In this document: piece by piece, positions 8,259 through 48,073 of the stretch
Position numbering within the stretch: the stretch's first letter is position 1
Layout: each line of letters opens with the position of its first letter
Source: Bifidobacterium breve
GTDB taxonomy: Bacteria > Actinomycetota > Actinomycetes > Nanopelagicales > Nanopelagicaceae
Direction of reading: 5' to 3'
DNA: 51,061 bases
NCBI GenBank assembly: GCA_945883755.1
Contig: CAMCXX010000006.1
Location: 1 to 51,061 of the forward strand
Translations under genes and position numbers: made by a program
The notes under the pieces: model-generated
The model's input: only the letters and a program-made list of their open reading frames with translations
Told to the model about the DNA's origin: nothing
The model's database searches: none

Positions 8259-9056
8259 ATGGAACGCACCTTAGTTCTTGGCGTATTAAATGTAACACCA
8301 GATTCTTTTGCCGATGGTGGAAAGTTTTTAGATCCAAAGGATGCAATAACTCAAGGACGCCGATTAATTGCCGAAGGTGCAGACATTATTGATGTTGGTG
8401 GTGAATCAACTAGACCAGGTGCGGATCGAGTTACAGAGGCTGAGGAGTTAAAGCGGGTAATTCCAGTTATCACTGAGTTAATAAAGGATGGCGCAGTAAT
8501 TAGTGTTGATACAACAAGAGCAGAGGTAGCACGGCAGGCGATTGCAGCGGGAGCTAGCTATGTTAATGATGTCAGTGGCGGCTTAGCTGATGAAAAGATG
8601 GCGCAATTAATTGCCACAAATCCCAAGGTGCAGTACATAGTGATGCACTGGCGTGGTGAGTCAAAGGATATGCAAAGTAAGGCGATCTATAAAGATGTTG
8701 TTAAAGAGGTGAAGGATGAATTGGATGATCGAGTCACCGAGTTAATTAAAGCAGGAGTTCAAGCAGAACAAATTATTTTAGATCCAGGAATTGGATTTGC
8801 TAAAGAGCCAGAACATAATTGGCAGATCTTGCAAAACATTGAGAGATTTCAATTACTTGGCTATCCAATTTTAATTGGCGCTTCTCGCAAACGATTTTTA
8901 GGAGAGCTAGTAAATGCAAAAAATGCTGATGATCGCGAGTCAGCTAGCATCGCATTAACCGCAGAGCTAGCCCGATTAAATATCTGGGGAGTTCGTACTC
9001 ACTCAGTAAAACCACATCGTGATGCGATCGCAGTTATCGATAGGCTTCGTAAATGA
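8259..9056 (+). CDS. folP: Dihydropteroate synthase
   Basis: Joins 6-hydroxymethyl-dihydropterin pyrophosphate with p-aminobenzoate; it is the sulfonamide target. The 265-residue TIM barrel has the expected landmarks: GVLNVTPDSFADGG at the N-terminus, DVGGESTRPGA, VNDVSGG, IILDPGIGFAKEPEHNW, the substrate loop GASRKRFLG and a C-terminal RTHSVKPHRDAI. The ATG lies seven bases after folE in an A-rich gap without a clear Shine-Dalgarno sequence. It overlaps folB by four bases (ATGA). Confidence 0.97.
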   Translation: MERTLVLGVLNVTPDSFADGGKFLDPKDAITQGRRLIAEGADIIDVGGESTRPGADRVTEAEELKRVIPVITELIKDGAVISVDTTRAEVARQAIAAGASYVNDVSGGLADEKMAQLIATNPKVQYIVMHWRGESKDMQSKAIYKDVVKEVKDELDDRVTELIKAGVQAEQIILDPGIGFAKEPEHNWQILQNIERFQLLGYPILIGASRKRFLGELVNAKNADDRESASIALTAELARLNIWGVRTHSVKPHRDAIAVIDRLRK

Positions 9057-40762: not shown

Positions 40763-41611
40763 TTAAAGAAAAAGCGCCAGACCAAGTGTGAAGGAGAGCA
40801 GAAGTTGCAGGCGGGCGGTACGAATTAGCATCGGAATCAGATCAAGGCCCGTCAAGCCCTGCAGGACACGGCGGATATTACTTATGGTCAGTGGCAACCA
40901 AATCAGGGTTAGAAGTGCAAATGAGTTAAAGGTGTAGGCGTAGACACAGATTATCTGTGCGATTACCATCAATCCCACATAAAAGTATCTGGTTTTTCTA
41001 TCCCCGATTCGAACCGCCATGGTTCGCTTGTTGGCTAATTTATCTAGAGGTAGATCACGTAGATTATTCATTACCAATATCGCACAAGCTAAAGCACCAA
41101 TTGGTATGGATAACAAAATAGCCTGGGTATTTATTTCACCGCTTTGCACATAATTGCTACCAACAGTTGCGATAACGCCAAAGAAAATAAAGACAGATAA
41201 TTCGCCAAAGCCAAAGTAGCCGTATGGTTTAGCACCACCTGTGTATCCCCAGGCGGCCAAAATTGAGATCGCACCAATTGGGATCAACCAAAGAGTTGTT
41301 TGTAATGCCAGTACCAAACCAGCAACCGCTGCGATGGCTAAACAAATTAAAGCTGCAATCTTTACTGCTTTAGCGGTAGCTAGCTCACTGCCAACTAATC
41401 TAGTTGGGCCAACTCGATTTTTATCTGTACCTCGAACACCATCGCTGTAATCATTTGCATAATTAACCGCAATTTGAAGTGAGAGTGAGACGGTTAAGGC
41501 AAGTGCAGCTTTCAGCCAATTAATTTCAGTAGCTAGTGCGGTTCCGACAAGCACAGGTGAAATTGCAGCAGGTAAAGTTTTAGGGCGAGTACCCATTATC
41601 CATTTATTCAT
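40763..41611 (-). CDS. menA: 1,4-dihydroxy-2-naphthoate polyprenyltransferase
   Basis: UbiA-superfamily membrane enzyme that prenylates 1,4-dihydroxy-2-naphthoate to demethylmenaquinone. It has 282 residues and about eight or nine helices. The first Asp motif is NYANDYSDGVRGTDKNRVGP and the second NNLRDLPLDKLANKRT. The N-terminal RPKTLPAAISPVLVGTA is a MenA hallmark. It begins immediately after the menE stop with no gap, so both are cotranscribed. Confidence 0.95.
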   Translation of the reverse strand: MNKWIMGTRPKTLPAAISPVLVGTALATEINWLKAALALTVSLSLQIAVNYANDYSDGVRGTDKNRVGPTRLVGSELATAKAVKIAALICLAIAAVAGLVLALQTTLWLIPIGAISILAAWGYTGGAKPYGYFGFGELSVFIFFGVIATVGSNYVQSGEINTQAILLSIPIGALACAILVMNNLRDLPLDKLANKRTMAVRIGDRKTRYFYVGLMVIAQIICVYAYTFNSFALLTLIWLPLTISNIRRVLQGLTGLDLIPMLIRTARLQLLLSFTLGLALFL

Positions 41612-42679
41612 TTACTTTCCTAACGCTAACCTGATTGCTGCTTTGCGATCAACCTTACCTAATACACTCTTTGGCATCTCTTTAAAGATGTAAATTTCCT
41701 TAGGTGAGTTAATACCAGTTAACTTTTGTTGAGCATCGGCAAGAGAGATATTGGCGGTAACACCAAGACACAATCGCTCACCCCACTCTGCATCTGGTAA
41801 GCCAAAGGCGACCACCTCTTGTTCAGGAAAGTGCGAATTAAACAACCTTTCAATATTTACAAGTGAGATCTTCTCACCCCCAGAATTAATTACATCATCC
41901 ATCCGGCCCAGTACTTTTAATTTTCCATCGATCAACTCACCGATATCACTTGTTTGAAACCAACCATCAGCTGTCAATGATTGCCACAGTGCTGGATTGT
42001 TTAGGTAATTACTTGCCATCATCGGCGCCTTTAACTTAATCAAACCGGTTGCGTCAATATCGACTTCAACCCCATCCAATGGTTTTTGGTTATAGACACA
42101 ACCACCACACATCTCCGTCATGCCGTAGGTAGTTACCACCTTTACATGTTTATCAGCAGCAGCTTTTCTTAATGATTCAGTAATTGGCCCACCGCCAACT
42201 AAAACCGCCTCCGCTGCAGTTAGATGTTCAAGTAACTTTGGATCATTGTTCAGCGCTCGGTGTAGTTGAGTTGGAACAATTGAAATAAAATCAGCATCAA
42301 CATACTCAGCAACATTTCGATTATCAATAACCTTTGTTCCCAGCGCAGTAGCGCGAGCGATCACATTTAAGCCAGCGATGTGATTAGTTGGAATAAGTAA
42401 TGACCAGGAATCACCAGGGACGGCACCTAAGTATTTATGTGCTGCATTTGTTGATGCAATAAGTGCAGTGGTTGAAATTGCAACTGAGTTTGGTTGGCCA
42501 GTAGAGCCGGAAGTGTTAACAACTAAACAGGTATCGGCAGATAGATTTTTGTACTGCGTTGGGGTGGTGGAAAGTGCTGGCCCATCGCCAGTTATTGCAT
42601 CTGCGATTTTTTCTTGAAGTTGTGGGATTGACCACTCAGGAGTGATCGAGATTAAATCCCGCTTTTCAGTTTCTTCCAT
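41612..42679 (-). CDS. menE: o-Succinylbenzoate--CoA ligase (short form)
   Basis: Acyl-adenylating enzyme that activates o-succinylbenzoate for MenB. The 355-residue product is the compact actinobacterial form. Motifs are the P-loop-like [15 protein letters not shown], the adenylation [32 protein letters not shown] (core TSDIGEL) and the catalytic C-terminal Lys in [11 protein letters not shown]. It heads menE-menA on the minus strand, divergent from menB across 55 bases. Confidence 0.93.
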
Positions 42680-42734
42680 AATCTGCGTAGGCTATCTCTT
42701 ATATAAATCTCTAGCCCAACCCAGGAGTGTAATT

Positions 42735-43613
42735 TTGAGCAAGCCAATAAAGCGTGAGCCGGGTGATCGCACTATCCCTGACTGGAAGTTGGCCGCCGGC
42801 GGTGAAAAATTTACTGATGTGATTTATGAGGTTGCTGATGGCATGGCAAAAATTACAATTAATCGACCTGAGGTTAGAAATGCATTTCGACCACAAACCC
42901 TCTTTGAGTTAGCAGAGGCTTTTAATTTAGCTAGAGATAATGATCAAGTTGGCGTAATTATCTTTACCGGTTCCGGTACCGAAGCATTTTGTTCTGGTGG
43001 AGATATTAATGTTCGCGGTGATGATGGATATTTAGGCAGTGATGCACTTGGTAAAAAAGGTATTGGCCGATTAAATGTTTTAGATTTACAGGTTCAAATT
43101 CGCAGAACACCAAAACCAGTAGTAGCGATGGTTGCTGGGTGGGCTATCGGTGGCGGCCATGTATTACATGTTGTTTGTGATTTAACTATTGCAGCAGAGA
43201 ATGCAAAGTTTGGGCAGACCGGACCAATGGTTGGATCCTTTGATGGCGGATATGGTGCAGGCTTATTGGCAGCACATGTTGGACAGAAGAAGGCACGTGA
43301 AATTTGGTTTTTATGTCGTCAATATGATGCAGCCGAAGCGTTAGATATGGGATTGGTAAATACCGTTGTTCCAGTTGCTGAACTAGAAGCAGAGACAGTT
43401 TCTTGGGCCAGAGAGATGTTGCGTCATTCTCCAATGGCGCTTCGATTATTAAAAGCTGGACTTAATGCAGCAGATGATGGATTAGCTGGCGTACAACAAT
43501 TAGCCGGAGATGCCACACTCCTTTTCTATTTAACAGAAGAAGGTCAGGAAGGTCGCAACGCTTACCAAGAAAAGCGCGAGCCTAATTTTAATAAATTCCC
43601 AAAACGACCTTAA
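42735..43613 (+). CDS. menB: 1,4-dihydroxy-2-naphthoyl-CoA synthase
   Basis: Crotonase-family ring-closing enzyme of menaquinone synthesis, 292 residues. The signature blocks are [33 protein letters not shown] (oxyanion region), [20 protein letters not shown] and [16 protein letters not shown], followed by [21 protein letters not shown] chose the TTG at 42735 because AGGAG lies at 42723-42727 at proper spacing; a longer frame would run back into menE. menC follows after four bases. Confidence 0.95.
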
Positions 43614-43617
43614 TTAA

Positions 43618-44565
43618 ATGTTGCCAGAGTTGCTGGAGAGTATGCGTGTTATTGCGCTACCAACCAAAACAGATTTTCGTGGCGTCACAAGCAGAGAGAT
43701 CGCCTTATTTAAAGGCGCAACTGGTTGGGCTGAGTTCTCACCATTTTTAGAGTACTCACCAGCGGAGTGTGTTCCTTGGTTGCAATCAATGATAGCTGCA
43801 GCAACACAAGCTCCACCCAAGATGTACCAGGAAAAGATTAAAGTCAATGGAACTATTCCAGAGTTAAATAATGCAGCAGAAATTGAAGAGATTGTTAAAT
43901 TATTTCCCGGCGTATCAACCTTTAAAGTAAAGGTTGGTGCAGATCTTGTCGCAGATATCGCTCGTCTTAAAGTTATTCGCAGGTTGGCACCCGAAGCTAA
44001 ATTAAGGATTGATGTAAATGGCACTTGGTCGGTAGCCACTGCAGTAGAGAATTTAACTGCAATTTATGATCAGGTTGGCTCACTTGAGTATGTTGAGCAG
44101 CCATGTGCCACGATAGATGAGTTGTATAAGTTAAAAGAGATGATCAAGTTTCCACTTTTGATCGCTGGCGATGAGATTATTCGCAAAGCATATGATCCAT
44201 TCGCCGTAAATTTGCAAGGAGCGGTTGATATTTTAGTTTTAAAGGTGGCGCCACTTGGCGGAATTGAACGAGCTCATCAAATTGCAGAGCATTTCCAATT
44301 ACCTATCGTGATTTCTAGTGCATTAGAAAGTGCGGTTGGAATCTCATATGGTTTAAAACTTGCTGCCTCATTTCAGGATTTAACCTTTGATTGTGGTCTT
44401 GGAACCGGCTCATTATTAAGCAAAGATGTTGCTAATCTGCCAATAATTGATGGTGCAATAACAGTAGTTGATGTTGAACCACAATTTGAAGATTTCGAAG
44501 TATCGCCAGAACGGCAACAATGGTGGAAGAATCGACTCCTACAAACAATCGAGAAAAGCAGATGA
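43618..44565 (+). CDS. menC: o-Succinylbenzoate synthase
   Basis: Enolase-superfamily dehydratase forming o-succinylbenzoate, 315 residues. Visible features are the KVKVG catalytic Lys motif, the metal-binding LRIDVNGTW, EYVEQPC and GDEIIR, and the second catalytic Lys in DILVLKVAPLGG. The actinobacterial start PELLESMRVIALP fits ATG 43618. Its TGA overlaps menD as ATGA. Confidence 0.93.
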   Translation: MLPELLESMRVIALPTKTDFRGVTSREIALFKGATGWAEFSPFLEYSPAECVPWLQSMIAAATQAPPKMYQEKIKVNGTIPELNNAAEIEEIVKLFPGVSTFKVKVGADLVADIARLKVIRRLAPEAKLRIDVNGTWSVATAVENLTAIYDQVGSLEYVEQPCATIDELYKLKEMIKFPLLIAGDEIIRKAYDPFAVNLQGAVDILVLKVAPLGGIERAHQIAEHFQLPIVISSALESAVGISYGLKLAASFQDLTFDCGLGTGSLLSKDVANLPIIDGAITVVDVEPQFEDFEVSPERQQWWKNRLLQTIEKSR

Positions 44566-46124
44566 TCTCCTCAACCAAATTAGCTCATTCAATTATCCGA
44601 GAGTTAATTGAGTGCGGCGTAAATCAATTTGTACTATCACCAGGTTCACGAAATGCCCCGCTTGCTATCGCATTACATGAAGCGGCAAGTAAAAATTTAA
44701 TTGATCTGCATGTAAAAATTGATGAACGTGGCGCTGCCTTTTTCGCACTTGGTATGGCAAAAGCTGCCAACAATTATGTAGCGGTTATTTGTACTAGCGG
44801 AACGGCGGCAGCTAATTTTCAGCCAGCAGCCCTTGAGGCCTTTCATTCGCAATCTAAATTGATCATCATTACCGCTGATCGACCAGCGAGATTACGTAAG
44901 ACGGGTGCCAATCAAACCACCGATCAAGTTGGTATTTACCAATCAATTTCAACCCATGATTTTGCAACAAGTATTGCAATTCGACCATTTCTAACAAATG
45001 GACCAATTCACTTAAATCCTCAATTTGATGAGCCACTACTTTCAGCTGAGAGCGCGAATTGGCTGGATGGATTACAGATAAACGCCATCGTCGATCAGGT
45101 TCAGCACGGTTCAAAATTAAATTTAACTGATGGTGTCTTGATTATTGGGCATGATCGTGGTGGCTTCTCTGTTGCCCAAGTTATGAGCTTTGCCCAAAAA
45201 CTGAATTGGCCAATAATCGCTGAAGATCCAATCTCCTTTCCAAATTCAGTTGTACATGCCAGCTTGTTTCTTACCGATGAGGAAATTCGAAGTAAATTGG
45301 CGCCAGATACGGCAATTGTGATCGGTCGAACCACATTATCTAGAAGTACTAATTCATTTGTAGCTACTGCGAAGAAAGTAATTGTGATTGATCCACGTTC
45401 GGCTTTAGTTGATACCGCTCGAACCGCCGATCAAATACTGACCGCACTTCCAATTGAAGTGACTAGCACAGGTGGCCAAAATTTAATTTGGGAGAGCGCA
45501 GCGACAGCTGCAGCAGCAGCATTAGAAGATATCCAATGGTCAGAACAACGAGTAATAACTGAGCTCATTGATTTAATCCCAGATGAATCAGCAATTTATA
45601 TTGGTTCATCTAGGCCGGTCAGAGATATCGAGGCATTTGCTCATCCGCGCAGTGGCGTATCAGTATTTGCCAATCGTGGCTTAGCTGGAATTGATGGAAA
45701 TATTTCAACTGTATTTGGAGTCGCCGAAAACTTTGAAACTACCTTTGCCATTCTTGGTGATCTCACCTACCTGCATGATATTTCCGCGTTAATCAATAAA
45801 TCCACCAGAAATGTTCGCCTCTATGTAATTGATAACAATGGCGGCGGAATTTTCTCTACCTTATCGCAGGCAAATGTTGAAGGTTTTGAGCAATTATTTG
45901 GCACACCACATAATTTAGATCTAGTTAGAGTAACTCAAGGATTTGGCGTAGAAAGCAGTTTGGTTACAAATCTAGTTGAGCTTCATTCTGCAATTAGTAA
46001 GCCGATCAATGGATTAGATGTTGTAATTATCAAAACACCAGATCGTGCACAGAATGCAGTACTGCTAAAGGAGTTAACTTACAAAGTTTCTAAAGCGGTT
46101 CGCATCGGCATTAACTTAGCCTGA
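44562..46124 (+). CDS. menD: SEPHCHC synthase (2-succinyl-5-enolpyruvyl-6-hydroxy-3-cyclohexene-1-carboxylate synthase)
   Basis: Thiamine diphosphate enzyme joining isochorismate and 2-oxoglutarate, about 520 residues. N-terminal VLSPGSRNAPLAIALHEA and DERGAAFFALGMAKA mark the substrate and TPP domains, with ICTSGTAAANF following. The C-terminal TPP/Mg motif is in the GDLTYLHD region and DNNGGGIFSTL. ATG 44562 overlaps the menC stop (ATGA). Its last 46 bases lie opposite the end of menF on the other strand. Confidence 0.95.
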   Translation: MISSTKLAHSIIRELIECGVNQFVLSPGSRNAPLAIALHEAASKNLIDLHVKIDERGAAFFALGMAKAANNYVAVICTSGTAAANFQPAALEAFHSQSKLIIITADRPARLRKTGANQTTDQVGIYQSISTHDFATSIAIRPFLTNGPIHLNPQFDEPLLSAESANWLDGLQINAIVDQVQHGSKLNLTDGVLIIGHDRGGFSVAQVMSFAQKLNWPIIAEDPISFPNSVVHASLFLTDEEIRSKLAPDTAIVIGRTTLSRSTNSFVATAKKVIVIDPRSALVDTARTADQILTALPIEVTSTGGQNLIWESAATAAAAALEDIQWSEQRVITELIDLIPDESAIYIGSSRPVRDIEAFAHPRSGVSVFANRGLAGIDGNISTVFGVAENFETTFAILGDLTYLHDISALINKSTRNVRLYVIDNNGGGIFSTLSQANVEGFEQLFGTPHNLDLVRVTQGFGVESSLVTNLVELHSAISKPINGLDVVIIKTPDRAQNAVLLKELTYKVSKAVRIGINLA

Positions 46125-47308
46125 CTTTCGGCAAACTCTTTCTCTGGATCTGAACCAGCAACAACACCACAACCAGCATAAATTTGAATCTTTAATTTAT
46201 CCTGACTTATCTGACCACACCGAAGTGCAATCGCGATCTCACCATCACCATGAATATCAATCCAACCAACTGGTCCGGCGTAGCGCCCACGATTCATCTG
46301 CTCTAACTCAGTAATTAATTCATTAGCTTTCTTAGTTGGTGTGCCACAAACAGCTGCAGATGGGTGAAGCTCAGAGATCAAGGTAAAGATATCTGTTGGT
46401 TTTGCACTGTCATTTAAAACTCAAGTCACATCAGTGGCTAGATGCATAACATTTGAAAGGTGTAAGACGAATGGTGAATCTGGCACATTTGTTGAAGAAC
46501 AAAATGGTGCAAGTGCATCGGCAACTGAACGCACTGCATACTCATGCTCTTCTAAATCTTTAGATGATTTTGCAAGGGATGCGGCAAGTGTTAAATCCCT
46601 ATCTTCATCTCCAGTCTTCCGAATGGTTCCTGCCAAAACTCGAGAGGTGACCAATGATTTACTTAGGCGAACTAATAACTCAGGAGTTGCGCCAACTAAA
46701 CCATCAACTAAAAACAACCAGGTTGAGGGGTACTCAATTTCTAATCGCTTTAATAATTGACGAGCATCAATTGCAGTAGTTGAGGTAGCGGTTAGATCTC
46801 GGGCCAATACCACTTTCTCGAGCTCACCAGCATTTATATACTTAATTGCTGCTGCCACTTGATTACGCCATTTATCCTCAGAGATCGAACCATCTGCCCA
46901 TTTAATTTCACCACTAACAACTGAGTTTTTTAATTGGGATATTTCAGGTTGGGCGGTATCGCCAATCCAAGTGATCCAAGATTTACCATTTTTCTGACCA
47001 ATCACAATTTGTGGAATTATCAATTTAGATGGTGCACTCTCATCAAATGCAAAGGAGGTAAAGAGAATTGGACCGGTTCCACCACCATGCACATTGTTTT
47101 TAATTGTGAAATTAGCAACCTCTTTATCCCACCAATTTCGAGCTAATGTAAATCGCTCTGGCCCAGTAATCTCTAACTCTTTATAAACTCCAAATCCAAT
47201 TAAGCCATCACCACTTCTAATCCATGCAGTTGATAAATTTTCGGCAGTACTAATCGAGGAGAGCAGTGGATGCTCACCCAGCAATTCGGTGGTGATTAGT
47301 TGCGACAT
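46079..47308 (-). pseudogene. menF: Isochorismate synthase menF interrupted by one in-frame TGA
   Basis: The frame from ATG 47308 to TAA 46079 would encode about 409 residues of a chorismate-utilising isochorismate synthase, the entry enzyme of the pathway. It is broken only by TGA at 46423-46421, right after NVMHLATDVT. The same frame resumes at once with VLNDSAKPTDIF, then ELHPSAAVCGTPTKKA, GRYAGPVGW, ALRCGQI and YAGCGVVAGSDPEKEFAE, all normal active-site blocks. Relatives have Gly (or Trp) at the TGA position, and one base change (GGA or TGG to TGA) explains it. A 295-residue product would lack the catalytic C-terminal third. TGA is a normal stop elsewhere in the window. It could be a sequencing error, a true nonsense mutation or a readthrough site. 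It overlaps menD by 46 bases. Confidence 0.85.
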
Positions 47309-47371
47309 GTTTTTATGCTGCCCATCAAGTTTGGATTTGTCTGTAAAGCCTACTCCTTAGAGAATAAGCCC

Positions 47372-48073
47372 GTGGTCAGAGCCAATTTAAATAAAGATCC
47401 AGATGATGTCTCCAAGATGTTTGATGGTGTGGCTAATCGATATGATTTTTTAAATGATCTCCTAAGTCTTGGTCGAACCAAGGCATGGCGCAAGGTTGTG
47501 ACAGCGATCATTGCACCTAAAGCTGGAATGAAGATTCTAGATATTGCTGCAGGAACCGGCTCATCAAGTGAACCCTTGGTGAAAAAGGGTGCGGATGTTA
47601 TCGCGCTAGATTTTTCAGAGGGGATGTTAGCTGCCGGACGTAAACGTCATAGCGGCATTAAGTTTCAACATGGTGATGCTTTAAAATTACCATTTGAAGA
47701 AAATACCTTTGATGTTACAACTATTTCATTTGGTCTTCGCAATACCAATGACACGACGTTGGCATTGAAAGAGGCGCTGCGAGTTACAAAAGAGAGTGGC
47801 CGAATTGTTATTTGTGAATTCTCCCATCCAACAAATAAAATTTTCCGAGTTATTTACTTAAAGTATTTAATGCGTGCATTACCAGTGATTGCCAAGCGCA
47901 TCTCTAAAAATCCGGCTGCATATATTTATTTGGCAGAGTCGATACAGGCCTGGCCTAACCAGAGCGCTCTGGCCCAAGTAATGAGACAGTCAGGCTGGGA
48001 ATCGGTCAGTTGGCAGGATTTAACCTTTGGAATTGTCGCAGTTCACATTGGCTACAAAGGGCAAGTGGCATAA
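47372..48073 (+). CDS. menG: Demethylmenaquinone methyltransferase
   Basis: SAM-dependent C-methyltransferase of the UbiE/MenG family for the last step of menaquinone synthesis; 233 residues. Signatures are MFDGVANRYDFLNDLLSLG at the start, the SAM loop ILDIAAGTGSSSEPL, FGLRNTNDTTLALKEALRVTK and the C-terminal WQDLTFGIVAVHIGYK. GTG 47372 (VVRANLNKDPDDVS) matches the usual actinobacterial start. The plus-strand frame also stays open further upstream into menF, which I judge a chance extension. It ends 31 bases before nuoA, linking quinone synthesis to complex I. Confidence 0.94.
   Translation: MVRANLNKDPDDVSKMFDGVANRYDFLNDLLSLGRTKAWRKVVTAIIAPKAGMKILDIAAGTGSSSEPLVKKGADVIALDFSEGMLAAGRKRHSGIKFQHGDALKLPFEENTFDVTTISFGLRNTNDTTLALKEALRVTKESGRIVICEFSHPTNKIFRVIYLKYLMRALPVIAKRISKNPAAYIYLAESIQAWPNQSALAQVMRQSGWESVSWQDLTFGIVAVHIGYKGQVA

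Follow-up and report, generated by a model that had tools for sequence, protein, structure and literature searches.

The gene for isochorismate synthase, menF, is interrupted in this draft genome of a freshwater actinobacterium by a single in-frame TGA, and we consider it highly probable (about 0.93) that this is an ordinary single-base nonsense lesion in an otherwise functional gene and not a programmed element. The window analyzed here is the whole of contig C6 (51,061 bases), from a draft genome of 998 kb in 38 contigs that is estimated to be 80.8% complete with 0.04% contamination. The features of the interrupted gene are as follows.

46079 to 47308, minus strand: menF, isochorismate synthase, 409 codons plus stop, with one interruption
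46424 to 47308, minus strand: N-terminal 295 codons, the product if the stop is real
46421 to 46423, minus strand: in-frame TGA at codon 296, replacing a conserved glycine codon (GGN in relatives)
46082 to 46420, minus strand: the 113 codons past the stop, encoding the C-terminal part of the chorismate-binding domain, still conserved

The interrupted gene and its neighborhood

The menF frame runs from an ATG at 47308 to a terminal TAA at 46079-46081, with the residues NVMHLATDVT preceding the TGA and VLNDSAKP following it in the same frame. With the TGA translated as X, the 409-residue product matched the NCBIfam isochorismate synthase model TIGR00543 at 267.1 bits (curated cut-off, 224.75 bits), while the pieces before and after the stop scored 129.8 and 128.2 bits, respectively, each below the cut-off on its own. 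A chance origin of the frame is excluded because the downstream part stays in register when aligned with 29 relatives. The read-through product aligns over the whole domain with the MenF/DhbC/EntC isochorismate synthases (TIGR00543; Pfam chorismate-binding domain PF00425); its best match among solved structures was DhbC 3os6 (1.2e-47), followed by EntC 5jxz and 3hwo, and E. coli MenF (2eua) was also among the matches. By these similarities the read-through frame is an isochorismate synthase, which differs from the known members in carrying TGA in place of the conserved glycine codon, so that the assembled sequence specifies no more than a truncated protein. A sequence-only reading of the same DNA had already named the gene, placed it at these coordinates and counted one internal stop; the 409-codon frame, the above-threshold match and the absence of any other stop within the menF frame all agree with it.

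The surrounding genes place menF in a menaquinone-synthesis context, with six further men genes and, beyond menG, the nuo genes.

40763 to 41611, minus strand: menA, intact (NF004751, 351 bits, cut-off 264)
41612 to 42679, minus strand: menE, frame intact
42642 to 43613, plus strand: menB, intact, with translation probably starting downstream of 42642
43618 to 44565, plus strand: menC, intact
44520 to 46124, plus strand: menD, intact, its 3' end overlapping the convergent 3' end of menF
47300 to 48073, plus strand: menG/ubiE, demethylmenaquinone methyltransferase, intact, nuo genes next

MenA, MenB, MenC, MenD and MenG each exceeded the NCBIfam equivalog cut-offs. MenE matched the o-succinylbenzoate-CoA ligase models below their cut-offs and aligned over its full length with relatives. 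The earlier statement that the remaining men genes are intact thus holds for all six in the window. Two minor observations concern these genes. menC (plus strand) is approximately 41-43% identical to its congeners, compared to 60-94% for its neighbors, which suggests that it either evolves much faster or has been replaced. ARAGORN called a tRNA-Ala inside menA (41252-41339, minus strand); Rfam detected no tRNA anywhere in the window, and the call is probably false.

Codon 296 in relatives and selection past the stop

In a family-level alignment spanning the same genus, the family and beyond, codon 296 encoded glycine in all 29 relatives (GGA, GGT, GGC or GGG). A scan across GTDB species gave glycine (GGN) at 75 of 80 loci and alanine (GCN) at the remaining five, and no aligned menF from either the 29 relatives or the 80 GTDB-species loci had a stop at this position. 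The lesion is one first-position change, most simply GGA to TGA (a coding-strand G-to-T substitution). The sequence-only reading had proposed GGA or TGG as the source codon; the glycine option stands, while tryptophan as the ancestral residue is rejected, with 104 of 109 aligned loci (summed over two partly overlapping sets) encoding glycine and five alanine. Nor did the aligned relatives show the situation named there as a refutation, in which homologues would all end at this point and be followed by a separate C-terminal protein.

Conservation is no lower in the 113 codons past the stop than in the preceding ones. In comparison with the nearest full-length relative (G015; 88% protein and 80% DNA identity), dN/dS was 0.075 over the 295 codons before the stop and 0.051 over the 113 codons after it. 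Besides the stop, only E277D departs from the columns that are invariant in the other 18 sequences of equal length. Neither relaxed selection nor any further lesion was detected past the stop. As a long-dead gene would look otherwise, this pattern of conservation indicates that the lesion either arose very recently or is absent from the cell.

Decoding, gene division and pathway decay as explanations

An open, conserved frame past the stop, in a gene that should matter to a menaquinone user, might suggest that full-length MenF is made by programmed or efficient readthrough, whether by selenocysteine insertion, a suppressor tRNA or a leaky UGA. However, the stop, which a readthrough gene would be expected to share with its relatives, occurs at codon 296 in no relative, and the residue there is a conserved glycine (rarely alanine) rather than cysteine or tryptophan; selenocysteine and cysteine were both absent from the homologues at this position. 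No match above the cut-offs was found in the 81%-complete genome for SelB (TIGR00475) or tRNA-Sec (RF01852). The sub-threshold SelB matches lay within long open frames elsewhere, the pattern that translation GTPases would give, and nearly all of the sub-threshold tRNA-Sec matches coincided with ordinary tRNAs. None of the 26 tRNAs recovered by family search of the same 81% reads a stop codon, and the 70 bases around the TGA folded no better than shuffled sequences (z -0.44). prfB, encoding RF2, is intact, which fits TGA as a normal stop and, together with TGA terminating other genes, rejects a recoded genetic code, as had been argued from the sequence at the outset. Programmed readthrough, kept open at that stage, gained no support from the stop-free relatives or from the searches for SelB, tRNA-Sec and suppressor tRNAs, and we regard it as very improbable. 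Even less probable is a real TGA bypassed by a readthrough or suppression device encoded in the fifth of the genome that is missing from the assembly.

The 100-codon frame that opens at a TTG (46381) after the stop raises the idea that menF is now two genes, with a 295-residue product and a C-terminal piece assembling into one enzyme. This is hardly credible: the TTG lies 13 codons past the stop and would skip conserved residues, the break would divide a single compact domain, and no relative is split at the same place.

Early decay of menaquinone synthesis in the lineage, with menF as the first gene lost, would accord with the need of streamlined freshwater actinobacteria to obtain several cofactors from other organisms (PMC7527133, in which menaquinone is not covered) and with a one-base frameshift in the menF of another genome of the genus (G016). 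That lesion (locus L026, G016:C3, around codons 104-109) sits at a run of eight A, a typical error site that is shorter in relatives (seven in G015), and is probably a homopolymer error or slippage. Moreover, all other men genes are intact in the present genome, its menF shows no other decay, and a menF match was found in 23 of 25 genomes of the genus, the other two being incomplete drafts (71% and 62%). Decay is accordingly given about as little weight as readthrough.

Consequences of a real stop

If the stop is real, translation would end after 295 residues, and the truncated MenF would lack the final quarter of its chorismate-binding domain. In isochorismate synthases, catalysis is of the general acid and general base type and is assisted by Mg, which coordinates two essential glutamates (PMC11444293). 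The missing part would include the stretch that aligns with the Mg-binding glutamate region of EntC. In this alignment EntC E376, which we take to be one of the Mg ligands, pairs with menF E394, past the stop, and the truncated product should on this basis be inactive.

Other sources of the activity were sought within the 80.8%-complete genome. The search for PF00425 returned three proteins, namely menF, a TrpE (beside trpC) and a PabB (beside an aminotransferase-like gene), and thus no second isochorismate synthase; the second menF/entC suggested earlier as a way out was not recovered. The futalosine route, for which MqnA was the sole gene searched, gave no match in the same assembly. The missing fifth of the genome could hold another isochorismate synthase gene or a tRNA that suppresses the stop. 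Under a real stop no isochorismate would be made, and menaquinone could be synthesized only from an imported precursor or after reversion of the locus. A real stop would offer a view of a menaquinone-pathway null as it occurs in nature, in a freshwater bacterium that is aerobic and streamlined, and would prompt the question of whether quinone precursors are taken up, whereas an erroneous one would illustrate that a single base of a draft assembly can delete a pathway step from a metabolic reconstruction. Our literature search returned no paper dealing with both Nanopelagicus and menaquinone.

Assembly error or fresh mutation

An ordinary nonsense lesion could have arisen in two ways: as a consensus, amplification or DNA-damage error in the draft assembly, or as a genuine mutation that very recently abolished gene function in the cell or population sampled. 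Both had been listed as live options in the sequence-only reading, and both are sustained by the conserved frame past the stop and by relatives that lack it. On priors, we put error slightly ahead and hold it to be somewhat probable, while a real mutation is a serious but less favored possibility. The slight lean arises because a fixed null in the only isochorismate synthase found, in an otherwise intact pathway, would be under strong counter-selection, and because G-to-T changes are a common oxidation artefact. Pseudogenes with a single nonsense codon, and consensus errors of draft genomes, likewise show one base change, no other damage, and intact neighbors and relatives; nothing distinguishes the menF case from them. 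In either case the lesion is of an ordinary kind, with no sign of special biology.

The sampled genes speak against a generally error-prone assembly. Among 138 genes (44 in the window and 94 on contig C3; approximately 44,600 codons) compared with the complete congener G013, menF had the sole convincing interior stop or frameshift. The other flags in this survey were dismissed: one reflects a start (at 8984) that had been extended too far, the other a frame that covers the tRNA pair on contig C3 and is not a gene. Further stops flagged in a less strict comparison preceded the start codons or belonged to antisense frames. As the stricter survey leaves only menF, general assembly damage is rejected; the assembly appears generally sound in the sampled part, although one single error genome-wide is still quite possible.

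The nearest relative, G018, is 97.6% identical at the DNA level over 4,399 bases, and it cannot decide between error and mutation because its contig ends at window position 46663, 240 bases short of the TGA. At its other end this contig (L151, G018:C66, 1-2412) runs beyond the right end of the window (51061) and would extend the nuo operon side. Elsewhere in the draft, tRNA-Ser genes that share the anticodon GGA are present on two separate contigs, C15 (13862-13946) and C34 (2809-2893), representing either a genuine duplication or redundancy at a contig end.
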